Below, piece by piece: positions 8,768 to 28,389 of a DNA stretch of 38,896 nt. Made by a program: the position numbers and the translations under genes. The notes under the pieces were generated by a model that saw only the letters and a program-made list of their open reading frames with translations, ran no database searches and was not told the DNA's origin. The stretch covers positions 1 to 38,896 of the forward strand of contig JADFFS010000013.1 in NCBI GenBank assembly GCA_022568195.1, read 5' to 3'. This stretch comes from Chloroflexota bacterium. GTDB lineage: Bacteria; Chloroflexota; Dehalococcoidia; Lucifugimonadales; UBA3495. Within the stretch, counting starts at the first letter, position 1. The number at the start of each line of letters is the position of its first letter.

Positions 8768-10996
8768 TTACCATCGGCCTTGGGACTTGAGCTGTGTCAA
8801 GCGCACCCGCGCCTCTTCAAGCATACTTTCTGGGACCTCTACGGGGTTATAGGCCGCGTGCCAGACCGCCCTGGCGAACCAGGATAGGTGTCCCTGGACC
8901 TCCGGTTGTCCTGTGGCCCTCAGCGTTGTGTAGCTGCCTACCGTCTGCCAAGATGACCGGCGTACCCCAGTCCGGCGCCGCAGCAGCCTCTCTACCTGGT
9001 AATACAATCGCAGCAACTCACGGCGGCGTCTGCCTGGGAGGCTGGAGTAGGGCAATCGATGTCCAGGCATAATTGCCTTGTCGCTGCTGGAACGGGTGTA
9101 CAGCCACCTTCCCACCAACATCACCAGTGCCACCAACGGCCCCAGGACGGAAAACAGGGGATTCTTCAGCAGTTCCAGCGTGGGCGGGGCCAGCCGGGCC
9201 GGAGCCGCCTTGGCCGCTCCGTAGATGTTCTCGCCGACACCGCTTTGGAAAAAACGGTGGAGCCGGGAGCCGCCCCCGCCCGGCACAACCAGGTCTTCCC
9301 GCGGGGCGGCATCGAAGGGTACCCAGCCATAGCGTGCAAAGTACACCTCGGCCCAGGCGTGGGCGTCGCTTTCCCGCACCATGTAAGCACCGGACAACGG
9401 GTCGCGGACACCGGGCAGATATCCCACGGCCATGCGGGCTGGCAGCCCGGCGCCACGGGCCAGCAGCACCGTGGCGCTGGCGTAGTCCAATGCGCTGCCC
9501 GGCCTACCTTGAAACAGGAATTGGTCCGGGGTCGCCGAGGATAACAAGTCGCCGGGCCGGTTGGGGTCGAACTTCCCTTCTTGGGTCAGGAAATTGACGA
9601 TGCGTTCGGCCTTGTCAAAGTCGGAGGTGGCGCCCTCGGTTATTTTTCGGGACAGATTTTTGATCCGGGTTGAGCCGAGGGGCAAATGCGTTAACCGGGG
9701 ATCGATGTTGCGCGCAGCGTCGTTTCGTAGCCGTTCCGGGGTGTATCTGGGATGGGCAGAAAGCACCCGGTAGGAGTCACCGCGGCTCACTCCCCTTTCC
9801 TTCAAGGCCTCTTTATCGGCCCAGATACGGAGACCCTGGTAGCCCATGAACACAGAGGTGGGATGGTCCTCCTGCACGAAGAAGGTCTGGTAGTACCGGA
9901 CACGGTTCCGACGCCCAAAGTTTTCTCGATTGATGAGGAGAACGGTCGGTCCATCACGCGTTCGGACCACGAACTGGGGAGTACGGCTACTGGTCCAGTT
10001 TTGGCCGTCGAAGCGTTCCAGGGTCTGCCCCCGCCAGTAGCTGGCGACCTTGCTGCGAACGAATAAGACTACTGGGTTGAAGGGGTCATCGGGACTACGG
10101 GGTTCTTCGCTACGTCGTGGAGCGCCGTCTCCCAAGGCAGGAGCAGCGCTCAGCGAGCCGATGGTCTCCTCTGGTGTCTCTGAGGCGTCTCCAGGCACGA
10201 TCTCCGGCAGCGGCGGCGCCTCTTTGATGGTGCTGGCCGTGTAGGGCAGAATAGTCACCTGGGCCGGCCTGATGAAGGCGCTTTGCCCCCGGGGCATCAA
10301 CCAAAAAGCCACGCCGGCCAATGTGAAAACAGCGCAGGCCGTCCCAATCCAGTAAATCAGCGCCGTCGGCCGCCCGTGCACCCAGTGGACTTGGGCTCCC
10401 CGGATGCCGTCCTCGAGGAATGTGACGCTCAGGAAAGCCAGGATCAAAACCACAAAGCCGACCACGAACATGCCGAAGCTGACGTCGAAGGCTTGTTGGC
10501 TGGCAAAAAACAGGACAATGCCGCTCATGCCCAGGCTGGTATACAGGCCGCCCCGGGTCCGCAGGTCGAAACTGGCCAGGGCCAGCACCAGGACCAGGAA
10601 ATGTCCCGCCGGCAACCAATCGCCGCTGAAAATCTCCAGCACCTTGAAGCGCATCAGAAAGGCTAGGGCCATCACCGAGACGACTATCAAAACCGGCCGT
10701 AGCCGTGACGGTTGATGCCGCCAGCGCCAGCTTACCCAATGGCCCAGGGTGCCCAGGGCGCCGCCCCCCAGGCTGAGCCACAACGAACCCCCAACCCAGC
10801 TCATCCCGAAGGCCGCCAGCCAGAGGGAGGCCAGCCCCAGCAACCGCAACCGGGGCGAGTCCTCGGTCCTGGGAGAAAAGAACCGCGACAGCCACAACCT
10901 TAGTAGCTGCAATAGTTTCCGAAATCCGGCCGCCCGCGCTCCCGGTGGATTCGCCGTGGTCGATCTCGGGTTGCCTGCGTTGTTGGAAAGACGCAC
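8768..10996 (-). CDS. TgpA-like membrane protein with transglutaminase-like domain
   Basis: About 742 residues with several N-terminal membrane segments, an extracytoplasmic transglutaminase-like domain, one more membrane helix (NPLFSVLGPLVALVMLVG) and a C-terminal DUF4129-like tail. The order matches the TgpA/YebA family (DUF3488 - transglut_core - DUF4129). The histidine block SDAHAWAEVYF and aspartate block WVPFDAAP are present, but the cysteine position in GSALDYASA is alanine (codon 9491-9493, residue 502), so peptidase or transglutaminase chemistry is doubtful. I placed the start at GTG 10996, just after the stop of the DUF58 gene and nine bases from GGAG; an ATG at 11101 would overlap that gene by 98 bases. 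Third gene of the moxR operon. Confidence 0.85.
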   Translation of the reverse strand: MRLSNNAGNPRSTTANPPGARAAGFRKLLQLLRLWLSRFFSPRTEDSPRLRLLGLASLWLAAFGMSWVGGSLWLSLGGGALGTLGHWVSWRWRHQPSRLRPVLIVVSVMALAFLMRFKVLEIFSGDWLPAGHFLVLVLALASFDLRTRGGLYTSLGMSGIVLFFASQQAFDVSFGMFVVGFVVLILAFLSVTFLEDGIRGAQVHWVHGRPTALIYWIGTACAVFTLAGVAFWLMPRGQSAFIRPAQVTILPYTASTIKEAPPLPEIVPGDASETPEETIGSLSAAPALGDGAPRRSEEPRSPDDPFNPVVLFVRSKVASYWRGQTLERFDGQNWTSSRTPQFVVRTRDGPTVLLINRENFGRRNRVRYYQTFFVQEDHPTSVFMGYQGLRIWADKEALKERGVSRGDSYRVLSAHPRYTPERLRNDAARNIDPRLTHLPLGSTRIKNLSRKITEGATSDFDKAERIVNFLTQEGKFDPNRPGDLLSSATPDQFLFQGRPGSALDYASATVLLARGAGLPARMAVGYLPGVRDPLSGAYMVRESDAHAWAEVYFARYGWVPFDAAPREDLVVPGGGGSRLHRFFQSGVGENIYGAAKAAPARLAPPTLELLKNPLFSVLGPLVALVMLVGRWLYTRSSSDKAIMPGHRLPYSSLPGRRRRELLRLYYQVERLLRRRTGVRRSSWQTVGSYTTLRATGQPEVQGHLSWFARAVWHAAYNPVEVPESMLEEARVRLTQLKSQGRW

Positions 10997-11003
10997 CAAG
11001 GTC

Positions 11004-12287
11004 TTACTCCGCAGCCCCGGTGGGCGTACCGTTGGTGGGTATGCCAGCGGCGGACCGGTCAAAAGAGAGCCCGCCCAACCGCTCCAGGGATTCAAGGGCA
11101 TCGGGAAGGCGGTGGGGCCGGCATAGCAGCACGGAGACCCTGGAGCGCTCCAAGGCGCTGAGGCCAGAGCCCCTTGTTTCAGTTGTTTCAGTCTCGCCGA
11201 ATCCAGCCAGTGCCACCACCACCAACCGCTCCAGCCGCGGGGCCTCTCTGATCAGCGCCTGGATTGCTTCTTGGTCGTCCGACGAGACGATCACCAAGGC
11301 GCTGCACCCCGGAGGCAGCCGGCTTAGCGACTCGGCAATCCCCCATCCTTCTCCGGCCTGCATTAACGACATCTGCCTCAGGAGGGCGGGCCAACTCATG
11401 CCGTCACCCTCGGAGACGCCGGCCGTCTCTCCTCGCAAGTTGCCCCCCCAGACTCTTACGGTTCCCTGGTTTCGTATAGCGTAGTCGGCGGCACTGGCTG
11501 CTATTTTGATGCTGTATTCCAGGGTAGTATCCTTGCCCTCGCCTTCCACCTGGATAGCATCGAAGATTATATCCAGTGTCGGATCCTTGGCGTCTTCGAA
11601 CTCCTTGACCATCGGCCGGCCCATCTTGGCGGTGTTGCGCCAATGGATGTAGCGCCGGGGATCGCCGGGGAAGTAGTGCCTGGAACCGACGGGATCCATG
11701 CCGGCCAACGATTTTCGAGGCTGAACCGACTCGCCGTACCGGGCTTCCACCAAAGCCAGGCGGCGCAGTGGGTGGACCATGGGATAAACCAGGACCGGCT
11801 CAGAAGCCGTGCGGTAAACCCTCCGGCGAAATAGGCCAAAGGGGGCCGAAGACTCCACGGTCACCGGGCCGAGATGGTGGAGCCCGCGTTGGTAGGCGGT
11901 GACCGTGGCAGATAGATTCACCTGGCCCCAGGCCGGCATCTGGGCTATAAAGAACCGTTTTAGCCGGCTGTCCGGCGCAGCCACGGGGCAATCATAATAG
12001 ACGTTGAACAGGAATCTGGGGAAAAAGGCTCGATTGCGCACCGAGACGTCAATGTGGAGAAGGTCCCCCTCAGCGGGTCCGGGGTGCAACGCCCCCGATT
12101 TTGGCCGGTCCACCCGCCGTTGGGTCTCCAGAAAGGCCGCGCCCAGCCAGGGCACCAGAAACGACAGAATTATGATTCCCCATAAGACGGCGTCTACCAG
12201 GTAAACCCATCCGACCAGCGTTACCCGCCCCACCAGGAACAAAAGAATAGCAACGCTGATAAAGCCGGTGGCTTTGGCGGTAATCAT
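11004..12287 (-). CDS. DUF58 domain protein
   Basis: A 427-residue protein with two N-terminal hydrophobic segments (residues about 8-50) and a large soluble part. The stretch SRHYFPGDPRRYIHWRNTA is the DUF58 hallmark, followed by KMGRPMVKEFED. The C-terminal half looks like the von Willebrand A-type fold that the family carries (LDIIFDAIQ, then CSALVIVSSDDQ). DUF58 proteins are routinely encoded beside MoxR ATPases and TgpA-like proteins and are thought to act together in envelope or protein-complex maturation. Here the gene starts 17 bases after the moxR stop and ends 7 bases before the TgpA start, so the three are almost surely one transcript. Confidence 0.88.
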   Translation of the reverse strand: MITAKATGFISVAILLFLVGRVTLVGWVYLVDAVLWGIIILSFLVPWLGAAFLETQRRVDRPKSGALHPGPAEGDLLHIDVSVRNRAFFPRFLFNVYYDCPVAAPDSRLKRFFIAQMPAWGQVNLSATVTAYQRGLHHLGPVTVESSAPFGLFRRRVYRTASEPVLVYPMVHPLRRLALVEARYGESVQPRKSLAGMDPVGSRHYFPGDPRRYIHWRNTAKMGRPMVKEFEDAKDPTLDIIFDAIQVEGEGKDTTLEYSIKIAASAADYAIRNQGTVRVWGGNLRGETAGVSEGDGMSWPALLRQMSLMQAGEGWGIAESLSRLPPGCSALVIVSSDDQEAIQALIREAPRLERLVVVALAGFGETETTETRGSGLSALERSRVSVLLCRPHRLPDALESLERLGGLSFDRSAAGIPTNGTPTGAAE

Positions 12288-12303
12288 GGGAGTGGACGCT
12301 CAG

Positions 12304-13227
12304 TTACACAGGCACGGCGACGGACTGGAGCAGCCGCGATATGGCATTACGGCCAGAGCCCACGCCATCTTCCTGCTCCACGATGATTCGGTGGCCCCAT
12401 ACGTAGGGGGCTAACTCTTGAACGTCTTCGGGGATCACGAATGGCCGTCCATCGAAAGCGGCCCAAGCCTGACAGGCCCACAGTAAGGCGGCGGACCCCC
12501 GAGGACTGACGCCCACGGAGATGTCGCTGCGCTGCCTTGACTCCCCGGCAAGGTTTACGATGTACTGCTTCACCGGCATCGCCACCTCCACTCGGAGGGT
12601 TGTCTCCTGCATTTCAATCACGTCGGCGGGAGTGAGCGTGGGATCAACGTGGGATACGCCGTGCTCAGACCGGTGTAGAATCTCCATCTCCTGCTCGGGC
12701 GTCGGTAGCCCCAAAGACATGGAGATCATGAAGCGGTCCAGCTGGGAGTTGGGCAGAGGGAAAGTCCCGTGCTTTTCTATGTTGTTCTGAGTAGCCAGGA
12801 TCAGAAAAGGCCGGGGCAGGGGCCGCACTGTGCCATCGGCGCTGACTTGCCTCTCGGCCATGGCTTCCAGCAACGCCGATTGGGTGCGTGGGCCAGCCCG
12901 GTTTAACTCGTCGGCAACCACCACATTGGCGAAAATGGGCCCCGGGACGAAGTCAAATGTTTGGTTCTTGACGTCGAAAACCGACGTGCCCGTGATATCG
13001 CTGGGCAAGAGGTCCGAGGTAAATTGTATCCGGCAGAAGACACCGTCAATGGATTGGGCGATGGTCTTGGCCAGCAAGGTCTTGCCAACGCCGGGCAGGT
13101 CTTCCAGCAGAACGTGGCCTTGAGCAAATAGGCCTAGGAGAGCAAACCGTAGATTGCGAGGGGAAGTGACTACTACGCTGGCGACATTCTCTTGTAACTT
13201 CTCGAACCGTTCCCGAAAGAAGTCCAT
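12304..13227 (-). CDS. MoxR-family AAA+ ATPase
   Basis: About 307 residues when started at ATG 13227; a TTG at 13326 gives 33 more residues that do not look conserved. Walker A is LEDLPGVGKT (about 41-50), followed by the MoxR-specific RIQFTSDLLPSDITG, Walker B VVVADELNRA, and sensor region FLILATQN. The C-terminal lid shows SPRGSAALLWACQAWAAFDGR in part. MoxR ATPases are cytoplasmic chaperone-like proteins that help mature partner proteins, often with von Willebrand A or DUF58 partners, which fits the next gene. It is the first gene of the leftward operon. No clear Shine-Dalgarno sequence decides the start. Confidence 0.88.
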   Translation of the reverse strand: MDFFRERFEKLQENVASVVVTSPRNLRFALLGLFAQGHVLLEDLPGVGKTLLAKTIAQSIDGVFCRIQFTSDLLPSDITGTSVFDVKNQTFDFVPGPIFANVVVADELNRAGPRTQSALLEAMAERQVSADGTVRPLPRPFLILATQNNIEKHGTFPLPNSQLDRFMISMSLGLPTPEQEMEILHRSEHGVSHVDPTLTPADVIEMQETTLRVEVAMPVKQYIVNLAGESRQRSDISVGVSPRGSAALLWACQAWAAFDGRPFVIPEDVQELAPYVWGHRIIVEQEDGVGSGRNAISRLLQSVAVPV

Positions 13228-13324
13228 GTCATCGAGATTGGCCTTTGATTGTTCGTCCTTTCTCAGTAGACCCAAGGCGATGACCTTCCGCGTAACATCT
13301 TTGTGGTATCTTTGCGAGGCCGGC

Positions 13325-13363
13325 AATCCGCCGGTAAAGGGGCCTACCGGTCAAAGGCGGATT
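13325..13363. repeat. Nested inverted repeat upstream of moxR
   Basis: AATCCGCC (13325-13332) pairs with GGCGGATT (13356-13363), and within it CCGGTA (13331-13336) pairs with TACCGG (13345-13350). The two arms share two bases, so they may be alternative stems. The element would lie upstream of, or in the leader of, the moxR operon. Confidence 0.4.
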
Positions 13364-13810: not shown

Positions 13811-14377
13811 ATGGGCAGGTACACATCGCTGGGAGAGGATCAAAGGGGCATTACCGGCCTTGAAACGGCCATAGTTCTTATTGCCTTCGTGGTGGTGGCC
13901 TCGGTGTTTGCTTTCGCGGTCCTCAGTACCGGCCTGATCAGCTCCGAAAAAAGCAAAGAGACGGTGCTTGGCGCTGTCGGGGAAGCCTCTGCGACTTTGA
14001 ACGTCCGCGGCGCGGTCGTGGCGAACGTTAACGCAGCTCTTACCGGGGTTGACACCATTAAGTTCAATCTAAGTAACGCCAGCCAATCGTATAAGGCGGT
14101 AGAGGTAAGTGACAAAGCGATGATCCTGACCTACGTGGACGAGGATCAAGCCCTAAATATTGCTGCATCGGATTGGACGGTAACCTGGTTGACCGGCTCA
14201 GGTGTTATTCTTGATCCAGGCGAGCAGGTAGAAATAGTGGTTACGCTGACGGGTTTAACCCCGCGTCTGGGTAAAGGCAAAGAATTCAGCATTCAAGTTA
14301 AGCCCCAAACAGGGGCCGTGCTGCTCATTAACCGGACCATGCCTCCGGAGCTATTTCGCAGTCTGAGTCTGAATTAG
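13811..14377 (+). CDS. Archaellin 1 (archaellum filament subunit)
   Basis: A 188-residue protein with a class III (prepilin-like) signal: a short charged leader ending QRG, then ITGLETAIVLIAFVVVASVF. Cleavage is expected after G13. The hydrophobic helix with ITGLETAI is the archaellin (ArlB/FlaB) hallmark and differs from bacterial pilins, whose mature N-terminus is FTLIELL. The rest is a beta-rich outer domain with EQVEIVVTLTGL and AVLLINRTMP near the end. Filament subunits are processed by a prepilin peptidase, inserted in the membrane and assembled by ArlI/ArlJ. AGGAAG precedes the ATG. It is closely similar to archaellin 3 at 27760-28389 along the whole length. Confidence 0.9.
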   Translation: MGRYTSLGEDQRGITGLETAIVLIAFVVVASVFAFAVLSTGLISSEKSKETVLGAVGEASATLNVRGAVVANVNAALTGVDTIKFNLSNASQSYKAVEVSDKAMILTYVDEDQALNIAASDWTVTWLTGSGVILDPGEQVEIVVTLTGLTPRLGKGKEFSIQVKPQTGAVLLINRTMPPELFRSLSLN

Positions 14378-14624: not shown

Positions 14625-15164
14625 TTGCGTGGTCTCAACGCAATTCAGATGGTCATCATTCTGATCACCACGGTGTTGATTTCGGTAGCGTTTGCTGTTG
14701 CGATCCTTAGGGCTGGAGGCAACGCCGCCGAGAGAAGCGAGCAGTTGATACGGCAGGCCTTGTCGGAGAGCACTGCCACCCTTATTCTTCGAGGCACGGT
14801 AGTCGGCGCCTCCAATCAAAAGAGGACAGCCCTGAAAGATATTGCCTTTACCCTGGCCAGCGGCGGCCAATCCCACGAGGCCGCCGACATCTCTCCCGCG
14901 GGCACGATCATCAGCTACATTGACCGCGACCAGGCTTTGAATATCCCAGGAACCGAGTGGTCGACGTCTTGGCTAATCGGCAATGGTCCCTTGCTTGACG
15001 CCGGTGAGGCGGTGGAACTGCGCGTGAGCCTGGCCGGCTTATCTCCCGCCTTGGGGACCCGCAGGGATTTTACCATCCGGGTCCACGCGCTTGGGGGGGC
15101 GGTTTTGTTGATCAACCGGAAGACCCCGGCCGAGTTGTCGCCCGTGGTCGACTTGACTCAGTGA
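14625..15164 (+). CDS. Archaellin 2, divergent archaellin-like subunit
   Basis: A 179-residue protein that I start at TTG 14625, nine bases after GGAGG. The leader is only MRG, and cleavage would follow G3, leaving LNAIQMVIILITTVLISVAF as the hydrophobic helix. From residue 30 on it matches archaellin 1 in layout: a TATLILRGTVVGASN block, TIISYIDRDQALNI, SWLIGNG, LDAGEAVELRVSLAGL and GGAVLLINRKTP. The altered N-terminus suggests a minor or basal subunit, but this is inference. It is 248 bases downstream of archaellin 1, on the same strand, and could be co-transcribed. The intervening 247 bases show no gene that I trust. Confidence 0.82.
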   Translation: MRGLNAIQMVIILITTVLISVAFAVAILRAGGNAAERSEQLIRQALSESTATLILRGTVVGASNQKRTALKDIAFTLASGGQSHEAADISPAGTIISYIDRDQALNIPGTEWSTSWLIGNGPLLDAGEAVELRVSLAGLSPALGTRRDFTIRVHALGGAVLLINRKTPAELSPVVDLTQ

Positions 15165-17390: not shown

Positions 17391-18905
17391 CTACCCGGCG
17401 AACAAGTTCGTGGCGGCCCGGGGGATCACCAAGAAGTTGACTCCAGAAATTATTGAGGTGATGCTGAAGGTTTGAACCAGTGTCAAGTTATGGCCCCCCG
17501 CCGCGAACTTGGGAGCCAGAGCATTGGCCACCGTTAACACCAGTACAACGAACGCCACCACCGCTGTAGTCATCCCCAAATCCTGGGTTTGGAACATGTC
17601 CAGGCCCGACCCTGTCGTCCCCAATGAAGCCGTGGCGCTTTGCGCCTGGTCCAGTACCGAAGCCGAAACTTCCTCCAGCTTGGCATTAAAGGTGCTGATG
17701 ATCGCCATGATGAACATGAGTAGCCCGGTCATAGCTGCGTGCATGGGGTAAGCCAGGAAGGTGAAGCTGCCTGCCGTCAAGCGGCGTATACCCCTCATCT
17801 CGGCCACCGACGAAGCATACGTCGAGGCAATATCCCCGATTTCCCCGGCATCTCCGCCCAGCTCTACAGCCTCCACCAGCATCCCAGTGGAACGGCGGAC
17901 CAACTCGCTTCCCGCTTCGGCCGCGAACTGCTCCCAGCATAAACTCGGGGGCAACTGGTTTGCGATGCGGTTTTTCAGGCGCAAAATGTGGGGTTCCAGA
18001 CCACCCATGGACTTCAGGTCGATATCGGGTAATGCCATACCCAGGGTGGTTTTTTTCGCCCCAGCGGTTGCTCCCAGGGTTCGCAGAAAGGTAGAAATCT
18101 CTTGGTCCAGCCCGGAAATTTTTTTAGCGTCCCTGGCGGCGAAATAGCCTGTGGGAAAAAGCATGAGCCCGATGGTAAGAAGGCCGGCGCCGAGTCCAAA
18201 GATAAAGCCCATGGCCACGGCTAGGGGTAACCCGATGCCGCCCAGGGTCATCAAGAGAAACTTTGCCTTGCGCCTGTCCGGTGGCATGCCAGTTTTGCTG
18301 GAAAAAGCCATCTCTTCATAGGGCGACGTGCGCAGTATCAGGTACACCCCTACGGCGGTGATGAAGAACGTGGCCATGCCCATCAAAACCACGAAGTTTT
18401 GCTGCAGCCCGCCGGTCATGGCGGAGACCAACGCCACCACCACGATCAAGGTGACCGACACCAGCAGAGCGGCGTAGGCGTCGGTCCATTTTTTTAGGTT
18501 TTCGATGCTGGTCTGGTATTCGGCGATGTATCTCCTAGATTCGAGTCTGGATTCTTCCTTGATAAAGGTCCCCTCCGATTCCCCTGAGGAGATGGTGCTG
18601 GCAAATCGGAGCAAAAGGCTCTTGATATTCGATGCCTTGGCCCTTCCGGCCACCGACTGGAGAGCCTCGGTGTACTCCATTCCGAGCCGCGCGGCCAAAA
18701 GGAATACCTGTTGGAAGAAGACCGCGGTCTTGTGGGGCTGCTCCCCAGCCTTCCTGAATATGGCCTCCCGGGGTAGCTGGGCAATGGCCAGGCACGACAT
18801 GTAAGTTAGACTGGAGAGAAGGTCGAAAGCAATGACGATGTTGTCCGAAGAGACCTTCTCAATCTCTTCTGGGGACGATAATGCTGGCGGTGCTGAGGTA
18901 GTCAT
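17391..18905 (-). CDS. arlJ: Archaellar membrane platform protein ArlJ
   Basis: A 504-residue protein with two GspF/TadC-type cytoplasmic helical domains and several membrane segments: about residues 144-166, 171-191, 213-250, 368-395, 440-460 and 470-497. Two halves each carry the T2SSF pattern (for example LGMEYTEALQSVAGRAKA in the first). The length and the double-domain layout fit ArlJ/FlaJ better than TadB or TadC, which are separate proteins of about 300 residues. It would anchor the filament in the membrane and be driven by ArlI, whose gene ends 88 bases upstream. The frame starts at ATG 18905. Confidence 0.87.
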   Translation of the reverse strand: MTTSAPPALSSPEEIEKVSSDNIVIAFDLLSSLTYMSCLAIAQLPREAIFRKAGEQPHKTAVFFQQVFLLAARLGMEYTEALQSVAGRAKASNIKSLLLRFASTISSGESEGTFIKEESRLESRRYIAEYQTSIENLKKWTDAYAALLVSVTLIVVVALVSAMTGGLQQNFVVLMGMATFFITAVGVYLILRTSPYEEMAFSSKTGMPPDRRKAKFLLMTLGGIGLPLAVAMGFIFGLGAGLLTIGLMLFPTGYFAARDAKKISGLDQEISTFLRTLGATAGAKKTTLGMALPDIDLKSMGGLEPHILRLKNRIANQLPPSLCWEQFAAEAGSELVRRSTGMLVEAVELGGDAGEIGDIASTYASSVAEMRGIRRLTAGSFTFLAYPMHAAMTGLLMFIMAIISTFNAKLEEVSASVLDQAQSATASLGTTGSGLDMFQTQDLGMTTAVVAFVVLVLTVANALAPKFAAGGHNLTLVQTFSITSIISGVNFLVIPRAATNLFAG

Positions 18906-18993: not shown

Positions 18994-20703
18994 TTATCGG
19001 AAGAGCCCTTCTCTGTATGCTTTGGAGAGCACGTTGAAGAAATCGTAAAAGTCGGTGAACTTTTGCTCGGCCAGACTCCTCAGCACCGTGGCGCGCTGCT
19101 CCATCTCGGTGTAGATATTCCGAACGTCTTTGGGCGCCATCCCTCTCTTGGGGGCGATGACGCGCTCCAACAGGTAGCTATTGTTGTAGGCCACGAACTC
19201 GTGTTCGTCGGTAACCGGGTTCCATTTAAACACTTCGATGAACGAGAAGGAATCGGAAATCGAGTCGTAGCCAATGATCTCGCTGATGCTGATGACTCGA
19301 CGGCCTTCCTTGCCGTTCGGTAGGCGGACGGCGCTACAGATGACCACCACGTTGAGGTTGTCGATGTAGACCTTGGGGATATTGATGGGGGCGCCGGTCA
19401 GCCTCTGAATCAGCTTCTCCACCGTGGCGGCGTGGAAGGTGGCCATACAGGCGTGGCCGGTCTGCATGGCCTGGAAGGCCACGGCTCCCTCTTCACCGCG
19501 GATCTCACCGATGATTATTTCGTTGGGCCGTTGCCGCAGCGCTGACTTGAGCAGGTCCATCATGGTCACGGCGGACCCGGACGAATCCTTGGAAGCGCCT
19601 CTTGTGGACTCTCTGATCCAGTTGGGGTGGGGCAACTGCACTTCCGGCGTGTCCTCGATGGTGACTATCTTGGCCGGGGGCGGGATAAAGGCGGCGATGG
19701 CGTTGAGCAATGTGGTTTTGCCCGAAGCTGTTTCACCCGAGATGAAGACGTTCATGCCCTCCCGCATGATAAAGGACAGGTAGGCAGCCATCTCGTAGGT
19801 CAGGGCGCCGAACTCGATCAAGTCCAGGATGCTCAACGGGGTTGCCGAGAACTTCCTGATGGTGAAGTTGCTCCCTCGTTTCGACACGTCTCCACCGTAG
19901 ACTATGTTTACGCGGGAGCCGTCGGGCAGGATCGCGTCCACAAGGGGTTCGCGGTAGGTTACCGGGCGGCCTATCTTTTCGGAGAGGCGGACCACAAAAC
20001 GGTCCAACTCTTCATTGGTATCGAAGGTGACGTTGGATGTCAGTGCGCCAAAAACCTTGTGCTCCACAAAGAGAGGCCCCACACCGCTGCAGCTCACATC
20101 CTCGATGTAGGGGTCGGTAATCAGGGGTTCGAGGACACCCAGCCCAACCTTATCCCTGACGATCAGGTACCTCAACCCGAGGTATTCCGCCGGGGTCACC
20201 CTCAGATGGCCGTCCCGTTTGAAAAATTTGCCGAACAGCCCGTGGCGATCCTCCTCGGGGGTGCAAATCTTTTCCAGGCTGTCCAATAGGGCCATGGCCC
20301 TCACTTCGGGGTCATCGGAGCCGGCGATTTCGTCGACCACGTGGACCAACCTGGCATCCACCAAGGGCATCAACTGGGCCAGCCCAGGGATTCCTGTCGG
20401 CTCAATGGTGTTGTACCGGTCCCGGCTGTTCTCTGGGTCGGGGTGAATGTGTATGTATACGCCTTTACCCGACGGGTAAACCACGTTGGGGTCTTTCATG
20501 CCCTTGTGGGCACGGCCAAGGGTCGCCGTAAACTCGGGAACCCCGATCTCGTCTATACGCAGGTCGTGGAGGTATTCCCACAGGTGGGGCTTTTCCCTGG
20601 ATTGCTCCTGCAGCATGGCCGGCAGCATGCGAAAGGCTGGGCAATCGAAGGGATCATCTGGGTGCCCGTGGACATTGGCAACTTCGGCAACCCTGGTGGC
20701 CAT
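18994..20703 (-). CDS. arlI: Archaellar secretion/rotation ATPase ArlI
   Basis: A 569-residue member of the GspE/PilB/TadA ATPase superfamily. Walker A is GETASGKTT (323-331), the Asp box is TIEDTPE (348-354), Walker B is IIIGEIRGEE (396-405), and the His box lies in TGHACMATFHAAT (415-427). The long N-terminal part with YIHIHPDP and the DPYIEDVSCSG segment (197-207) is typical of archaeal FlaI/ArlI and its close GspE2 relatives. The enzyme hydrolyses ATP to assemble the filament and, in archaea, to rotate it. Its gene starts two bases after the arlH stop (TAACCATG), so translation is likely coupled. TadA is the main alternative; the ArlH neighbour and archaellins decide against it. Confidence 0.92.
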   Translation of the reverse strand: MATRVAEVANVHGHPDDPFDCPAFRMLPAMLQEQSREKPHLWEYLHDLRIDEIGVPEFTATLGRAHKGMKDPNVVYPSGKGVYIHIHPDPENSRDRYNTIEPTGIPGLAQLMPLVDARLVHVVDEIAGSDDPEVRAMALLDSLEKICTPEEDRHGLFGKFFKRDGHLRVTPAEYLGLRYLIVRDKVGLGVLEPLITDPYIEDVSCSGVGPLFVEHKVFGALTSNVTFDTNEELDRFVVRLSEKIGRPVTYREPLVDAILPDGSRVNIVYGGDVSKRGSNFTIRKFSATPLSILDLIEFGALTYEMAAYLSFIMREGMNVFISGETASGKTTLLNAIAAFIPPPAKIVTIEDTPEVQLPHPNWIRESTRGASKDSSGSAVTMMDLLKSALRQRPNEIIIGEIRGEEGAVAFQAMQTGHACMATFHAATVEKLIQRLTGAPINIPKVYIDNLNVVVICSAVRLPNGKEGRRVISISEIIGYDSISDSFSFIEVFKWNPVTDEHEFVAYNNSYLLERVIAPKRGMAPKDVRNIYTEMEQRATVLRSLAEQKFTDFYDFFNVLSKAYREGLFR

Positions 20704-20705
20704 GG

Positions 20706-21428
20706 TTACGCCTTGGCTCGGGAGAGGGGAATGGTTTTCAGCCCCACTCCTGGTTCAACGTCGAAGCTCATCGTATTGTCCTGCCGGTCCGCGTTACGGA
20801 CCTTGGTCACTTCCATTACCTTCACTACCAGGTCCCTCATTTCCTCCAAGCGCAAGCTGAGGTGAGCGTCGCAAAGCGACCGAATGCGTTGGAGCATACC
20901 CTCGCCAAAAGCGTAGGTGTGCACCACCAGGAAAATTGTCCTGCCGTCCTCGCAAAGCTGTTTGCATGCCGAGAAGAAGTCTACAATACCAACTTCTTGG
21001 CCATGGGTTACTATTCTCGTGGCGGAATCGACAATGATTACCTCGTAGTTCTTCGGCAGCTTCTCGATGTGATCGGCCAACCGGTCAAAGAGAACTACGG
21101 AGTTTTCGTTTCTACCGCTTATCTGCATCCGGTAGATTCTAAGAAAGTCCATCAGGAAGTGATCGGTCACGTCCAGATTGATGGAGCTCATTTGAGTCAA
21201 CAGGTTTTTTACGGTGGTCTCGGTGGTGTAGTAAGCGACGTCGACCCCCGAGTTCAAGGCGCCATAAGCAAACTGCTGGCATATCACGCTTTTTCCAGAA
21301 GCCGGCGCACCCTCTATCAAGGTCAGGGCGCCCCGCTGCACGCTTCCACCCAACCGGGCATCCATCTCTGTCCTGCCCGTGGAAATGACAACTTCTCCCG
21401 GCGCCGCATCAACGTCGCTGGTTACCAT
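20706..21428 (-). CDS. arlH: Archaellum regulator ArlH, RecA/KaiC-like
   Basis: About 240 residues from ATG 21428, which has GGAG six bases upstream; a GTG four codons earlier is less well placed. The fold is RecA-like: Walker A GAPASGKS (40-47), then the ETTVKNLL segment (70-77) and Walker B EVIIVDSATRI (129-139). ArlH binds ATP but is a weak or inactive ATPase; in archaea it docks on ArlI and its nucleotide state is thought to gate assembly and rotation. ArlH is found with archaella and not with ordinary type IV pili, so it is the strongest marker in this locus. It is the first gene of the arlH-arlI-arlJ transcript. Confidence 0.88.
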   Translation of the reverse strand: MVTSDVDAAPGEVVISTGRTEMDARLGGSVQRGALTLIEGAPASGKSVICQQFAYGALNSGVDVAYYTTETTVKNLLTQMSSINLDVTDHFLMDFLRIYRMQISGRNENSVVLFDRLADHIEKLPKNYEVIIVDSATRIVTHGQEVGIVDFFSACKQLCEDGRTIFLVVHTYAFGEGMLQRIRSLCDAHLSLRLEEMRDLVVKVMEVTKVRNADRQDNTMSFDVEPGVGLKTIPLSRAKA

Positions 21429-21866
21429 TAGACTCTCCACGCCCGTTTACATGGCGTCATTATCAATATTGTATCACGAAAGAGCCAATTTAACCTGCCC
21501 GAAAACAGCTTGTGAATAAGGCTTTTTCAACTTGGCTGGCGCCTTATACAGGTGTTAATTTGTCGATGGCACGGGATGCCGGCGGGACCGCGATCAATTG
21601 GAACAGCGATAGAGCGGGCCGATAAGGCGTAATGCGAGTTAGTCTGAAGGCTCGAATGGGGCACGCCGCGTGATACTATATCTTTATATGTTTAGCCAAG
21701 GTCCTCTTACCGCGCTCGCCCAGCATCAGACACTTCGGCGCGACTTTGAGCACAGCTATCGCGCCAAAACAGATTGTAACTGTCGTGGGGAATAGGCCAC
21801 CCGACCATATCCGTTGGTTGTTGCCCCAGATATCACCGCCACAAAACCGTTTTCGTGTAGGACGCG
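21429..21866. promoter_or_regulatory. Divergent region between arlH and the ArlF-like gene
   Basis: No gene is supported in these 438 bases. On the minus strand TACAAT (plus coordinates 21468-21473) is a reasonable -10 for arlH, about 40 bases before its ATG, but I found no -35. Near 21671-21692 an AT-rich patch (TGATACTATATCTTTATATG) stands out; its role is unclear. Confidence 0.35.
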
Positions 21867-22367
21867 ATGGCAGATAGCGTAGCCGCCATGCTGATACTGG
21901 CGCTATTGCTGGTTGTAATTACGCTGATGGCTCGGGCCACCATCGCTGGCGGAACCATGATGGACCTGGCTTCTAAGGCAGCTTTTGACCGGGCGGAGGA
22001 CCGGGCCAGGACCAATATCAGCGTCACCAGCGTAACCGCCAGCGGAACCAGTGTCACTGTGAAGCTCAAAAACACGGGCGCCACTTCCGTGGCCGACTTT
22101 GACAAGATGGACTTCATCATAAGCTACGTGTCCTCCAACGCCACGGTCATAACCCGCTTGACCCACACAGCGGGGACTCTGGCAGCCGACCAGTGGAAAC
22201 GAACCTCGATTTCGCCGGACACCCTGGAACCAAACACTTGGAACGAATCGGAGACGTTGACCCTGGACGCGTTACTGGGCAACACCCTGGATTCGGCTTC
22301 CACCGGGACAGTGGCTGTAGTAACCCCCCACGGCGTAGACGCCCTGGGATTTTTCACAGTTCCCTAG
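21867..22367 (+). CDS. ArlF-like stator/pseudoperiplasmic protein
   Basis: A 166-residue protein with an N-terminal hydrophobic helix (about 5-25) and a beta-sandwich body. The strand pattern VTVKLKNTGATSVADFDKMDF followed by ITRLTHTAG and TWNESETLTLDAL is like the archaellin-fold ArlF (FlaF) proteins, which in archaea sit outside the membrane and form the stator with ArlG. It matches the first 160 residues of the two 486-residue proteins encoded next to it, and lacks their repeats. ArlF-type proteins keep the N-terminal helix as an anchor. TAGGA is placed upstream of ATG 21867. It is the only gene of this part of the locus on the plus strand. Confidence 0.78.
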   Translation: MADSVAAMLILALLLVVITLMARATIAGGTMMDLASKAAFDRAEDRARTNISVTSVTASGTSVTVKLKNTGATSVADFDKMDFIISYVSSNATVITRLTHTAGTLAADQWKRTSISPDTLEPNTWNESETLTLDALLGNTLDSASTGTVAVVTPHGVDALGFFTVP

Positions 22368-22446: not shown

Positions 22447-23907
22447 CTAATTGGTCAGCGCCTTGGTGTAGGCCGCGATGAACACGTCTACCTGGGCGTG
22501 CTCCAGGTACTCATCCCACACGTTGTCCGCCCTGATGCCGGTGCCCCCTTGCAGGTGCGACCGTCTTTCTATGTCCCCGTTCCAGTCGTCCGTGGAGTCC
22601 CCGTGTCGAAAGCCAGCTTTTCTGGCCTTACCCCCTGTTGTCCCGGCGCGGAAGATCAGCCCGTTGGCCTCGGTTGGCACGCTGTAGGTATCGGCGTCCA
22701 GCTCCTGCCAGGAATCCAGCGCAGGGTCGGCAACAGCCACATCTTCTATGTAATAGACCACCGAGTCCTTGGTCTGGCCCACCAGGTAGACCTTCACTGT
22801 CGCCACGTCACCGATCCAGGCCTGAAACTGGTCAGCGGCGTTGATGCCCACCAGATACATGGTGTTCGAGTACTTCCGCAGATCCGACTGCGGTTCAGGG
22901 AAGCTACTGCCGGTCTCCCGGATGCCGTATTTGACATCACCGTTTTTCGTGGAGTCGATGAAAAGTATAACCCCGTCGGCCGCGCCTCCCACGTAGGCGG
23001 ACACGTCTACAGTGGCCCACAGCCCCTCCTGGCTAACCGGAGGAGTGATGTCAAACGGGGTGTTGAAATACGAGGGGTCTGCCCCCAAGGTATACCCCCG
23101 CAGCTTGAAGTCTATTGCGGTATCCTCGATATATCCCTGAATCAGCCGGTTGCCGTCCACCTCGACGATCTGCCACCGGTGGGTCTCCCCGGCCATCGCT
23201 TGAAATAGCGTATCGGACATGTAGTCCCGGGTATCTTTCTTGCCCCGTACCACTCCACTTAAATTGCCGGTGGTGCCGGTATTCACCAACTCGACGATGG
23301 CCCCGGTCGTTGTTCCCACGGGGACGTAGGACGACAGGTCTATGTCCTGCCAGGAGCCGGTGGTAGTGAGGCTGATGTCCTGGGCATTGGTGAACCAGAA
23401 GAACCCCCTGGCGGAGAAGGGTGAGGTGTCCAGCACACCGTTGGGCGTTGCTACGATAACGTTCCCTATGGTGTCGTCGCTCTGTGCGGGGGACAGGAGG
23501 GCGTCCAGGGTAATGGTTTCGCCGGGGTTCCAGGCGTTGGGCTGGAAGGAGTCGGGCGAGATGGAGGTCATTTTCCACTGGTTGGCGCCCAATGTGCCGG
23601 TGGTATAAGCCAGGTAGGTGGCCACCGTGTTAACTGCGGCGTCGGTGTAGTCGACGATGAAGTCCATGGCGGCGTAGTCGTAGACGGAGGTGAGGCCCGT
23701 GTTCTTAAGCTGCAAAGTTAGGGTGGTGCCGCCGCCCTCGGCACTGACCAAGGTCAATCCGGTCCTGGCCCGCTCCCCGTCCCGGTTAACGGCCTCCGCG
23801 GAGGTTAGGCCGACGGCGGTGCTGGAAACGATCGAGGCCCAGGACATGAGGGACAACACCACGATCAGCACGCCCAGCACCAGGAGTCCGGCTACATTGA
23901 TGGCCAT
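22447..23907 (-). CDS. ArlF-like protein with three extra beta-rich repeats, copy B
   Basis: A 486-residue protein. Residues 1-160 are an ArlF-like module (hydrophobic helix 5-25, LTLQLKNTGLTSVYDYAAMDF at 63-83 in shortened form, TWN-like PNAWNPGETITL). Three repeats follow, at about 186-273, 297-379 and 400-481. Each starts with W-x-x-(I/V/L)-D, includes a xGxI(V/L)x strand, and ends with a V/F-rich strand (FKLRGYT, VKVYLVGQT, VDVFIAAYT). The repeats look like one beta-sandwich fold, not a named domain I can assign. The layout suggests a stator-like base with a large external extension. It starts 21 bases after the stop of copy A, which is about the same length and clearly homologous along its whole length. 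Confidence 0.75.
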   Translation of the reverse strand: MAINVAGLLVLGVLIVVLSLMSWASIVSSTAVGLTSAEAVNRDGERARTGLTLVSAEGGGTTLTLQLKNTGLTSVYDYAAMDFIVDYTDAAVNTVATYLAYTTGTLGANQWKMTSISPDSFQPNAWNPGETITLDALLSPAQSDDTIGNVIVATPNGVLDTSPFSARGFFWFTNAQDISLTTTGSWQDIDLSSYVPVGTTTGAIVELVNTGTTGNLSGVVRGKKDTRDYMSDTLFQAMAGETHRWQIVEVDGNRLIQGYIEDTAIDFKLRGYTLGADPSYFNTPFDITPPVSQEGLWATVDVSAYVGGAADGVILFIDSTKNGDVKYGIRETGSSFPEPQSDLRKYSNTMYLVGINAADQFQAWIGDVATVKVYLVGQTKDSVVYYIEDVAVADPALDSWQELDADTYSVPTEANGLIFRAGTTGGKARKAGFRHGDSTDDWNGDIERRSHLQGGTGIRADNVWDEYLEHAQVDVFIAAYTKALTN

Positions 23908-23928
23908 CGTGATCCATCCGGCATTGCT

Positions 23929-25389
23929 TTATTCCGTCACCGCCACGGTGTACGCCGCTATGAACACCTCTGAGCTGGTAGACTCCATGTATTCATCCCA
24001 CACGTCGTCAGCCCTGATGCCGGTGCCCGCCAGCAGATAAGTAATTCGTTCGATGTCCCCGTTCCAGTCATCGGTGGAGTCCCCGTGTCGAAACCCAAGT
24101 TTTTTGTTAACCGCGGTCAATGCCCCGGCGCGTAGGAACAGCCCGTTGGCCTCGATGGGAACGTTGTAGGTATTGGCGTCCAACTCCTGCCAGGAGCCCG
24201 TGACCGGGTCGGCAACGGCCACATCCTCCAGGTTGTACACCACCGAGTCCTTGGTCTGGCCCACCAGGTAGATCTTTACAGTGAGCACTTCTTCGAGCCA
24301 CGCCTCAAACTTGTTAGCGGCGTTAATTCCCACCAGGTACATGGTGCTCGAGTACCTACCGATCTCGTGATCGTCGAGTCCGGCGGCTAAAAAGGTGCTT
24401 CCAACTTCGCGGATGGCGTATTTTCTTAATCCTCCATCGGTGGAGTCGACGAAAAGTATTACGCCGTCGGCGTCGGCGTCCACGTGAGCGGACACGTCAA
24501 CAGTTTCCCATTGGGCTTTCGTGGCGGGCGTGATGTCCGGCGGATTGGCAAAATACGACGGGTCTGACCCTATGGTATAGCCTCGCAGCTTGAAGTCTAT
24601 GTCCCCATGCTCGATCCATCCCTGAATCAGCCGGTTGCCGTCGACCTTAACTATCTGCCACCGGTGGACCTTATTAGTCATCGCTTCGAACACAGGATTA
24701 GACATGTAATCCCGGGTATCTTCCTTTCCCCGCACCACCCCGCTCAAGTTGTTGATGCTGGAGGTGTTCACAGCTTCGACTATGACTCCGGTGGTTCCCA
24801 CGGGGACGTAGGACGACAGGTCTATGTCCTGCCACAAGGAGGTGGTTGACAGGCTTATGTCGAAGGCGTTGGTGAACCAGAAGAACCCCTTAGCCGTGAA
24901 AGACGCGGTTGCCGCCACGCCGCTGGGAGTTGCCACGACCACCCTGGCTGAGGAGTCGGCCTTTTGCGTAGGATTCAGCTTGGCGTCCAGGGTGATAATC
25001 TCTTCGGGGTCCCAGGCGTTGGGCTGGAAGGTGTCTGGGGTCAGAGAGGTCTTCTTCCACTGGTTATCGGCCAATGCTCCTGTGGTGTAGGTGAGGCGGG
25101 CGATGACCCGGTTGTTCGACGAGTCGGTGTAGTCTACGATGAAGTCCATGTGGGGATAGTCAAACACGGAGGTGAGGCCCGTGTTTTTGATCTGCACCGT
25201 CAATGTTCCGCCGCCTCCCCAGGCGCTGATCATCTGCAGATTGGTCCGGGCCCGCTCTCCGGCCCGGCCTACGGCTTCCGTGGAGGTGAGGCCGAGGGCG
25301 GTATTGGAGGCGACGGACACCCGGGACATGAGGGACAATACGATGATCATCACACCGAGCACCATGAGCCCGGCTATGTTGATTCCCAT
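23929..25389 (-). CDS. ArlF-like protein with three extra beta-rich repeats, copy A
   Basis: A 486-residue paralogue of the neighbouring copy B. It has the same order: an ArlF-like first 160 residues (helix AGLMVLGVMIIVLSLMSRVS, then LTVQIKNTGLTSVFDYPHMDF in its strand region) and three beta-rich repeats ending DFKLRGYT, VKIYLVGQT and VFIAAYT. Blocks such as RDYMSN, DGNRLIQGWIE and GFRHGDSTDDWNGDIER are shared almost word for word between the copies, which points to tandem duplication with later divergence. It starts six bases after the ArlG-like stop, so the two are surely co-transcribed. The extracellular side and stator role are inferred from the ArlF-like module and the neighbours. Confidence 0.75.
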   Translation of the reverse strand: MGINIAGLMVLGVMIIVLSLMSRVSVASNTALGLTSTEAVGRAGERARTNLQMISAWGGGGTLTVQIKNTGLTSVFDYPHMDFIVDYTDSSNNRVIARLTYTTGALADNQWKKTSLTPDTFQPNAWDPEEIITLDAKLNPTQKADSSARVVVATPSGVAATASFTAKGFFWFTNAFDISLSTTSLWQDIDLSSYVPVGTTGVIVEAVNTSSINNLSGVVRGKEDTRDYMSNPVFEAMTNKVHRWQIVKVDGNRLIQGWIEHGDIDFKLRGYTIGSDPSYFANPPDITPATKAQWETVDVSAHVDADADGVILFVDSTDGGLRKYAIREVGSTFLAAGLDDHEIGRYSSTMYLVGINAANKFEAWLEEVLTVKIYLVGQTKDSVVYNLEDVAVADPVTGSWQELDANTYNVPIEANGLFLRAGALTAVNKKLGFRHGDSTDDWNGDIERITYLLAGTGIRADDVWDEYMESTSSEVFIAAYTVAVTE

Positions 25390-25395
25390 GGTTAG

Positions 25396-25869
25396 TTAGA
25401 CCGTGAATTCCTTCTCGGCGGACACGGCGTTGTGGGTTATGAATCTAACCAGGTAGTCGCCGGTACCCAAAGTGGTCAGGTTAATGGTGACCTTGATGGT
25501 AGCTCCCGGCCTCCAGATGGTGTCCCCCTCGATGGTATAGGACCAGCAGTCGCTGCTGCAACTGGCGTTATAGCTAAGGCGGTTAAAGGTGGTGGAGGTT
25601 TTGAAGAAAAGGTCGGAGGAGTCAATCGCCGTTATCTCGGCTCCTCCCACGTTTTTGACCCAGGTATACACTATTTTCGGGCTGCCGGAGGTGTCGGTGG
25701 CGACGTGAATAATCTCCGTATCTGTTTTCAGCCGTTCCGAAGCCGCCGAACTGGACGAAAGCACGGCGCTGGTGCTCCTACCCAGGGCAGGCAGCATAGT
25801 GTTGACCACCATTACGGCGGCCACCACCGCAGCCATGGTCAGCAAGGTGGTAACCAGGACTTTATCCAT
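25396..25869 (-). CDS. ArlG-like stator protein
   Basis: A 157-residue protein with an N-terminal hydrophobic helix (about 5-28) and a beta-rich body. The start MDKVLVTTLLTMAAVVAAVM and the YTWVKNVGGAEITAIDSSDLFF strand region resemble ArlG (FlaG), the partner of ArlF in the archaeal stator. A C-x3-C pair (SCSSDC, about residues 103-108) may form a disulfide outside the cell. The gene overlaps the end of the ArlD/E-like gene by eight bases and is followed six bases later by the extended ArlF-like copy A; such tight spacing supports a shared machine. ArlF and ArlG are hard to tell apart by eye, so the letter is less certain than the class. Confidence 0.68.
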   Translation of the reverse strand: MDKVLVTTLLTMAAVVAAVMVVNTMLPALGRSTSAVLSSSSAASERLKTDTEIIHVATDTSGSPKIVYTWVKNVGGAEITAIDSSDLFFKTSTTFNRLSYNASCSSDCWSYTIEGDTIWRPGATIKVTINLTTLGTGDYLVRFITHNAVSAEKEFTV

Positions 25870-27145
25870 ATCTGTCTTTGATCACCGCGGGTGCCTGCGC
25901 AAAATCCGTGACGCCCTGGGCCGGCTGGTATTCGGTGCTGTGGACTATGCCGTGTAACTTGAGCAAGGAGTCAATGAATTCTTGGAGAGTAAACCCGGAA
26001 CCGTCTATGTCACTGGGAAGGGTTTCCAGTTGAGCCGCCTTTAAGAGCATACGCTCCACAGCGGGTGGCAGATTTCCGGTCAGCTTGTAAACTCGAAGCA
26101 GGGTCTCCAACTGATCCTGGCCGATTTTGGGCTGAACCGTACCGGCCCAACGCATGAGATTAGACACCAGGTTGGCGTCCAATCTGTCGAACTCCCCGTA
26201 GCCTCGTACAACTCCGTCAGGGTGATGCCGATTTCCGGAGACCCCGGCCGGCGCTTGCTGTCCGGGTACTTGGCCCAGGTCCGAACCGAGGTGTGCCGAA
26301 TCCGGAGAGTGGCCGGGCATCCTTGCCGACCCGTTGGACGAAGAAGAGGCTTGGGCCGGTTGGCGCCCGTAGCCACCTTGACGGTATTCCAGCCCGGACA
26401 CGATGGCGTGCAATTGCAATATGGAGTCAATGTATTCTTCCAGGGTGAACCCCGGAGCGTCCGTGGCGCCTGGAAGGGCGTCCAACTTGGCTGCCTCCAG
26501 GATCAGGTCTTCGATACTCTCCGGCATATGGCCAGTTGTCTCGTATATCTCCAGCAGGGTCCACAGCTGGGTGAGACCAATCCTGGGTCGAAGCCCGCCG
26601 ACCCACCGTATGATGTTGGCCACGGAGTGGATGTCCAGCGCGCGAATCTGAACAGCCAACTGGCTGGAGTCTTGGGGAATGAGTTGGTAACCGCCAGACT
26701 CAGGGAACTGGGAAGCTCCCTGCTGGTTTGGGTCCGAGCCCATGTCGGGCATCACGGTATCCAGTTGCTGGAACCAATCGGGGGGCGGTTGCATCTCGTC
26801 CACAGGTAGCTGGCCACCGGTGGACTGATCGACCGGCTCTACGGCGGGCTCGGGCTCTTCTTCGATAGGTTCTTCTGGCTCCTCTTCTTCCTCAACCTCA
26901 TCTACCGGCTGCTCTTCCTCTTCTTCCACCGGCTCTGCTGCGGGTTCTTCTACCGCTGGCTTCGGAGCCTCACCGGTGGCGACACTCGCGCCTTGGCGTA
27001 TCTCGATAATTTGGGATTCGCTTTCTGTGGGACGGGTTTCTATTACGGTAACCATGTCCCTTAACTCGACCAAGGCTTGCTGGATCTCTCCCTTAATCAG
27101 GGTGATCTCACTCTCGATATAATCGACCCTTTCGTCTAGTTCCAT
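25862..27145 (-). CDS. ArlD/E-like protein with two tandem domains
   Basis: A 427-residue soluble protein. Residues 1-35 form a predicted coiled coil (LDERVDYIESEITLIKGEI), 65-105 are a glutamate- and proline-rich linker, and two copies of an 80-residue helical domain sit at about 170-253 and 322-404. The copies share the pattern (I/L)MRW-x-G-x-x-x-x-(R/K)IG-x-x-QL-x-x-LL-x-x-Y-x-x-TG. That pattern resembles the FlaD/E domain of archaeal motor proteins (a W, then G, then LL-x-Y-x-x-x-G-x-(I/L)). In euryarchaea ArlC, D and E form the cytoplasmic ring around ArlI and ArlH and link to chemotaxis. It overlaps the ArlG-like gene by eight bases. Confidence 0.65.
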   Translation of the reverse strand: MELDERVDYIESEITLIKGEIQQALVELRDMVTVIETRPTESESQIIEIRQGASVATGEAPKPAVEEPAAEPVEEEEEQPVDEVEEEEEPEEPIEEEPEPAVEPVDQSTGGQLPVDEMQPPPDWFQQLDTVMPDMGSDPNQQGASQFPESGGYQLIPQDSSQLAVQIRALDIHSVANIIRWVGGLRPRIGLTQLWTLLEIYETTGHMPESIEDLILEAAKLDALPGATDAPGFTLEEYIDSILQLHAIVSGLEYRQGGYGRQPAQASSSSNGSARMPGHSPDSAHLGSDLGQVPGQQAPAGVSGNRHHPDGVVRGYGEFDRLDANLVSNLMRWAGTVQPKIGQDQLETLLRVYKLTGNLPPAVERMLLKAAQLETLPSDIDGSGFTLQEFIDSLLKLHGIVHSTEYQPAQGVTDFAQAPAVIKDRYG

Positions 27146-27759: not shown

Positions 27760-28389
27760 CTAGTTAAGGGACATGATCTTTTTGAGTTCCCCCGGCGTGG
27801 TCCTGTTGACGATGACCACTGCGCCCTTGTTGGGCTTCACTTGGATTGTGAACTCTTTGTTCTTGGGCAGCAACGGTGTGAGGTTCGTGAGGGTCACGGT
27901 CATGTCCGTCTGCTCCCCGGGGTCCAGCAGTTCGCCGTTACCGATGATCCAAACGGCTTTCCACCTGCACTCCGTAGTCTCGGGGTCGTTATCGAAGGTA
28001 TAGTCTTTGTCCTTACAGTTGATGGCTTGGTCGGCGTCCAGGTAGGTCACCACGACACCGGTTTTGGACAGGTCCACGGCGTCTGCTGCCTGAGCGGCGC
28101 TGCTTAATGTGAACTTGATGCTGTCGATAAAGGTTTTATTTGTGTTGGATTCGGCTATGATGTCACCGCGTATGGCTATGGTGGACGAGGTTTCCGCCAG
28201 CCCACCGAGAACCGTTTCCTTGCTCTTTTCGGCGCTGAGCAGACCGGTGCTCAAAACCGCGAAGGCAAACACCGAGGCGACCACCACGAAGGCTATCAGG
28301 ACTATTGCTGTTTCTAGCCCCGTTATCCCCCGTTGGTCCTTGGATAATGCGCCCCACCGCCCTAACAAGCGCTTGTCGTCGTCGCGCAT
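27760..28389 (-). CDS. Archaellin 3 (archaellum filament subunit)
   Basis: A 209-residue archaellin. The leader ends KDQRG (cleavage expected after G21), followed by ITGLETAIVLIAFVVVASVF, identical at the helix start to archaellin 1. The outer domain keeps the same strands (VTYLDADQAI, DPGEQTDMTVTL, FTIQVKPNKGAVVIVNRTTP). It differs by an insertion of about 15 residues carrying C125 and C141, a possible disulfide pair on the outer surface. GGGAGGA lies just upstream of ATG 28389. It is the first archaellum structural gene downstream of the two-component genes. Two archaellins with the same helix but different outer domains could share one filament or be expressed at different times. Confidence 0.9.
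   Translation of the reverse strand: MRDDDKRLLGRWGALSKDQRGITGLETAIVLIAFVVVASVFAFAVLSTGLLSAEKSKETVLGGLAETSSTIAIRGDIIAESNTNKTFIDSIKFTLSSAAQAADAVDLSKTGVVVTYLDADQAINCKDKDYTFDNDPETTECRWKAVWIIGNGELLDPGEQTDMTVTLTNLTPLLPKNKEFTIQVKPNKGAVVIVNRTTPGELKKIMSLN

Follow-up and report, generated by a model that had tools for sequence, protein, structure and literature searches.

Tandem ArlF proteins with a predicted C1q/TNF-like knob in a divergent arl locus of a SAR202-type Chloroflexota genome

The arl locus and its tandem ArlF genes

The window, by which we mean the whole stretch of 38,896 nucleotides that was analysed, carries a complete arl locus on the reverse strand: arlB, an arlCDE-like gene, arlG, two long ArlF genes (copies A and B), arlH, arlI and arlJ. 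The archaellin gene arlB (27760-28389) was identified with Pfam Arch_flagellin (81.2 bits), and a motif check found its class III signal peptide, DQRG/ITGLETAIV. The arlCDE-like gene (25862-27145) has a weak match to Pfam Arch_fla_DE and was assigned by position and by similarity to its counterpart in other arl loci. It is followed by arlG (25396-25869; NCBIfam ArlG, E 1.9e-10; ArlG clade, 100/100). Copy A (23929-25389) lies 6 bases behind arlG and precedes copy B (22447-23907). Downstream of both copies are arlH (20706-21440; NCBIfam FlaH accessory protein, E 1e-73), the motor ATPase gene arlI (18994-20703; NCBIfam archaellum motor, 639 bits, above the curated cut-off of 550) and the membrane platform gene arlJ (17391-18905; NCBIfam ArlJ, E 2.3e-102). 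A short, undecorated ArlF paralogue of 166 aa (21867-22367; NCBIfam ArlF, E 9.3e-8) is encoded on the forward strand, convergent with copy B and divergent from arlH.

Other genes surround the locus. A second archaellin with a class III signal (13811-14377) and an archaellin-fold protein without one (14625-15164) are encoded on the forward strand 2-3 kb beyond arlJ. MoxR, DUF58 and TgpA-type transglutaminase genes (8768-13326, reverse strand) adjoin the locus. A response-regulator gene flanks it, as one does the divergent arl loci of two other genomes, G040 and G043.

The source genome (3.74 Mb, 293 contigs) is 89.7% complete and 6.6% contaminated. It has another arl locus, on contig C83, which is complete and canonical and encodes an ordinary ArlF of 172 aa. 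The arl locus of the window is thus the divergent second arl locus of a SAR202-type Chloroflexota genome. G043 likewise has two arl loci, one canonical and one divergent. Comparison with two of the genome's other contigs speaks against a foreign origin of the contig: GC is 0.591 here and 0.588 and 0.596 there, and tetranucleotide usage correlates at 0.77-0.79.

The first-pass annotation had described a tandem pair of 486-residue proteins whose first 160 residues or so resemble the stand-alone ArlF-like protein and whose remainder forms three beta-rich repeats. The reading frames bear this out. Both copies are 486 aa long and are 67% identical over 488 columns. Residues 1-165 of copy A are 46% identical to the 166-aa neighbour. 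The three repeats, which end in RGYT, VGQT and AAYT, are weak but real: within-protein comparisons gave Z 3.4-7.6 against shuffles, and comparison of the A and B repeats with related repeats of another protein, at locus L049, gave up to Z 24.9.

Full-length homologues of A and B with 56-57% identity occur in a second genome, G032, where the arrangement is conserved. MAGs of relatives that have the extension go under the names SAR202 cluster, Chloroflexi or Dehalococcoidia. All reading frames are intact, and since dN between A and B is 0.24 against a dS of 0.69 (dN/dS about 0.34), the two copies have been kept by selection. Together with the full-length homologues, these rates show that the frames are genuinely coding. 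They also bear on another possible explanation, in which the second arl locus is decaying and A and B are no more than inert duplicates. The complete canonical locus on C83 would allow such decay, but the selection estimate, the intact frames and the homologues and arrangement kept in another genome speak against it, and we regard it as very improbable.

The ArlF head and the predicted knob

Copy A was modelled with AlphaFold2 from a 29-sequence alignment. The model (pLDDT 92.7, pTM 0.81) consists of a helix, an Ig-like head and three beta domains. Residues 2-48 (25246-25386), helical according to DSSP, form the predicted N-terminal transmembrane and stalk helix. Residues 49-165 (24895-25245) form the head. 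Residues 166-486 (23932-24894) comprise the three repeats, at approximately 24559-24894, 24241-24558 and 23932-24240. Copy B has the same architecture, with the head at about 23413-23907 and the remainder at about 22450-23412.

The best solved matches of the head were the Sulfolobus FlaF/ArlF structures 4p94 and 4zbh (Z 17.0), with 4p94 superposing at 1.6 Å over 112 residues. FlaG entries (Z 14.4-14.6) and then archaellins (Z up to 12.7) were the runners-up. A sequence profile of the head compared with PDB sequences matched FlaF alone (E 4.3e-8). In a tree of heads, 44 ArlF-type heads, including canonical ArlFs from the arlG-arlH slot, were separated from 5 ArlGs (100/100), so that ArlG identity for A and B was rejected. 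A, B, the short ArlF and their G032 counterparts form one clade (97/91). A and B do not match the NCBIfam ArlF model, and the short paralogue scores 32.3 bits, below the cut-off of 110; this cut-off is not a biological defining feature, and the model appears to be built on archaeal members. The ArlG of the window is also below its NCBIfam cut-off (40.9 versus 110). Structure, sequence profile and operon position together support an ArlF fold for the modelled head of A, and the archaellin-like fold proposed earlier for the first 160 residues holds in the prediction, with FlaF as its closest relative.

Could A and B instead be minor archaellins or pilins that enter the filament, for example at its tip, and present the extension there? 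In favour of this, ArlF and archaellins have a common fold, and the heads are hit by Pfam Arch_flagellin (32.1 bits for copy A). Yet a simple motif check found no class III signal peptide in 20/20 ArlF-type heads, A and B included, whereas the arlB genes, that of the window among them, have one. Structure and profile also favour FlaF over archaellin. We therefore consider a filament role unlikely.

Like A and B, the ArlF (FlaF) of Sulfolobus acidocaldarius has an Ig-like head and an N-terminal helix without a class III signal, and is encoded beside arlG. It ends after the Ig head, at residue 164, whereas A and B, in two tandem copies, add a 320-residue extension with a predicted pseudo-trimeric fold. 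The extension was also modelled alone (pLDDT 90.2, pTM 0.89). The five best matches in VIA-align were all single-chain trimers of C1q/TNF type, 4zch (Z 12.7), 5hzf (12.3), 5hkj (11.8), 5kca (10.5) and 4dou (10.0), and the next match had Z 5.2. Between 288 and 291 of 323 extension residues align to these trimers, at a sequence identity of 4-7%. In the model, three jelly rolls are packed round a pseudo-threefold axis as a compact knob seated directly on the Ig head. Foldseek alone does not place C1q/TNF trimers on top, and a phage C1q-domain model was also found in structure comparison with the knob. The assignment thus rests on VIA-align and, more weakly, on the viral C1q-domain model. In sequence, the extension could be tied to neither C1q nor TNF: it gave no Pfam hit and no match among PDB sequences, and searches of Pfam, PHROGs, PDB and phage records produced nothing firm. 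By its fold alone, then, the extension is predicted to be a single-chain C1q/TNF-like pseudo-trimer.

Single-chain C1q/TNF trimers (5hzf, 5hkj, 4dou, 4zch) resemble the knob in that a single polypeptide supplies all three jelly rolls, packed about a pseudo-threefold axis. Those in the PDB are laboratory constructs, whereas the predicted one-chain trimer of the knob is encoded in a genome. The bacterial TNF-like lectins BC2L-CN and PLTL, likened here by description, share the trimeric jelly-roll fold and bind glycans (PMC12914763). They differ in being homo-oligomers without an ArlF head.

ArlF forms within and beyond the arlG-arlH slot

arlJ was found in 50/250 genomes of the order, and the loci were then read. 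The commonest ArlF between arlG and arlH, present in most loci, is 172-178 aa long. In an ArlI tree, 12/14 loci of the clade that contains the window (99/96) have a decorated ArlF in this slot, and none was seen in 22 loci outside the clade, in a few of which no ArlF was recognised; the clade rows are not independent and the counts are given without a p-value. Of nine further arl loci elsewhere in the class, four have readable ArlFs, of 128-172 aa. Decoration, which the first-pass annotation had suggested following across Chloroflexota with archaella, is therefore common in one clade of arl loci and was not seen in the 22 loci beyond it.

The modules differ between lineages. The window has two 486-aa proteins with the C1q-like knob, and G043 and G040 have 549-aa proteins with a head and two jelly rolls. 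In G196 the ArlFs are 923 and 357 aa long, the larger with PD40 beta-propeller repeats. A PPC-like domain suspected by eye in the smaller was dropped for want of Pfam support. G433 also has a 357-aa ArlF, its larger one being cut by the contig end. In G319 (L096, 7383-14377) the interval between arlG and arlH holds three ArlFs in tandem, 497, 1285 and 546 aa long, whose Ig heads are interrupted by PD40 beta-propeller repeats. Six genomes of one family (f8) have ArlFs of 324-330 aa in which a block of about 150 residues interrupts the head at the same point. Two members of the clade are undecorated or nearly so, with ArlFs of 174 aa (G391) and 189 aa with a Pro-Thr tail (G457). As the modules differ in at least four sub-lineages, decoration has recurred or modules have been exchanged. 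In the six f8 genomes the decorated ArlF is the sole ArlF detected with the head profile, which makes decoration compatible with stator duty.

Knobs were also found outside the slot. The C1q-like triple repeat occurs on longer ArlF-headed proteins in G043, G045, G027 and G352 and at loci L073 and L075. In G206 it is carried by a DUF11 protein that lacks an ArlF head. The knob protein of G045 adjoins an arl locus and one in G546 adjoins arlB. The MoxR, DUF58 and TgpA trio that adjoins the window locus also precedes knob proteins of 669-670 aa in G045, beside its arl locus, and in G043. One chain in G352 combines the knob with the jelly rolls found in the operon ArlF of G043. In the head tree, two other groups of knob-bearing heads stand apart from the clade of the window, so the knob has joined ArlF heads at least three times. 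The archaellum ATPase was not found in G352 (94% complete) or in the genomes of L075 and L077, all of which encode ArlF-headed knob proteins; these proteins cannot all be stator parts. In G032 the homologues of A, B and the short ArlF are on a 20.7-kb contig with no arlGHIJ adjoining.

At L049 (8279-9937), in a small Chloroflexota genome, a triple-repeat protein has genes for a phage major head protein and a portal as neighbours, so that the knob module is shared with a provirus-like region. A scan of viral contigs with the L049 repeat found relatives on three IMG/VR contigs. A scan with the knob profile found none.

ArlF heads carry other modules too. A second ArlF-headed family (326-351 aa) with different C-terminal modules is found in SAR202-type genomes at a conserved locus outside arl (L056, 8849-9829; L059, 4046-5032; L065, 9700-10680; L067, 7154-8209). 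A counterpart of the short ArlF of the window, at L042 (8560-9993), is 477 aa long and has an ArlF head and about six repeats of 50 residues (DVYAIAYAGDGDDGFLKTVTI). The near-duplicate contig L057 shows two ORFs, of 165 and 329 aa, in its place.

Envelope and possible roles of the decorated ArlFs

The extension had been proposed to reach through a bacterial surface layer or cell wall and anchor the stator. Passage through a cell wall is not supported, on two counts. The models give a compact knob that follows the head directly, and the fold search on the repeats returned a C1q/TNF-like pseudo-trimer, which is not a rod spanning an envelope. In addition, mraY and murG were not found in 16/16 genomes tested (this genome and 15 relatives from the order), while the same searches matched in all ten bacterial control genomes. 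The marine bacterium of the window therefore appears, from its gene content, to have no peptidoglycan wall, and peptidoglycan is an unlikely anchor. SAR202 isolates are similar in that peptidoglycan genes are absent and an S-layer-like coat has been shown (PMC10444878). Of 244 archaellated Chloroflexota, 235 encode peptidoglycan synthesis (PMC13319060), and the genomes studied here depart from that majority. Other parts of the first-pass description hold: the extension is an addition to ArlF and rich in beta structure, and the repeated decoration of ArlF in a constant operon slot makes a stator link plausible.

In archaea, ArlG is capped by ArlF, which also binds the S-layer; when this is lost, swimming stops (PMC13319060, PMC8667602, PMC12024892). 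In the simplest and likeliest interpretation, to which we give an even chance, A and B are ArlF stator caps with an added module that grips the surface layer. The Ig head would cap ArlG as in Sulfolobus, and the knob would take hold of the outer surface layer through one of its proteins or glycans, much as TNF-like lectins of other bacteria bind glycans (PMC12914763). This would keep the stator fixed as the filament is turned by ArlI and ArlJ. Modules would vary by lineage because the gripped surface layer varies.

The main competing explanation makes A and B surface adhesins or receptors for which the ArlF-type helix and Ig head serve only as membrane anchor or stalk. The targets of the knob would then be external, whether glycans, particles or cells, with the arl locus as a convenient home or a site of co-regulation. 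Several of the observations above count for this explanation and, in part, against a stator cap: the knob on ArlF-headed proteins away from arl loci, on the DUF11 protein and beside phage genes; orphan knob proteins in several genomes that give no archaellum ATPase match; the second ArlF-headed family at its non-arl locus; and the G032 trio away from arlGHIJ. Moreover, the short ArlF of the window and the canonical ArlF of the C83 locus could suffice for stator duty. An adhesin role alone, however, does not predict that other lineages decorate their sole ArlF in exactly the arlG-arlH slot. It also sits poorly with the placement of A immediately behind arlG and of both copies before arlH, and with heads that group with the local short ArlF, apart from the two orphan clades. 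We judge the adhesin explanation possible, though we lean against it.

We found no report of decorated ArlFs in the open-licence literature. Six modelled archaeal ArlFs showed minor differences and no distinct binding motif (PMC12448462), and arlF duplication in some Chloroflexota has been mentioned, with nothing on decoration (PMC12488501). The nearest parallel is PilO-LysM of Litorilinea aerophila, a proposed archaellum anchor that likewise adapts archaella to a bacterial envelope (PMC13319060). It relies on peptidoglycan, whereas here ArlF itself is modified, in genomes where mraY and murG were not found. The same paper treats the way archaella are held still in bacteria as an open question, stating that for members without PilO and PilN the anchoring 'is unknown' (PMC13319060). 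Decorated ArlFs are concrete, expressible candidates for such an anchor where peptidoglycan is an unlikely partner, and the predicted one-chain C1q/TNF-like trimer is of structural interest in its own right.

More broadly, and more tentatively, ArlF may be a modular anchor in one bacterial arl lineage, with varied modules tracking the changing surface layer of peptidoglycan-free Chloroflexota; we place this a little short of an even chance. If it is true, a rotary motor that moves into a new envelope adapts through its stator cap. The decorated ArlFs point to the ArlF slot as the place of that adaptation, and suggest a way in which a motor of archaeal type could take hold of the surface of a bacterial cell.
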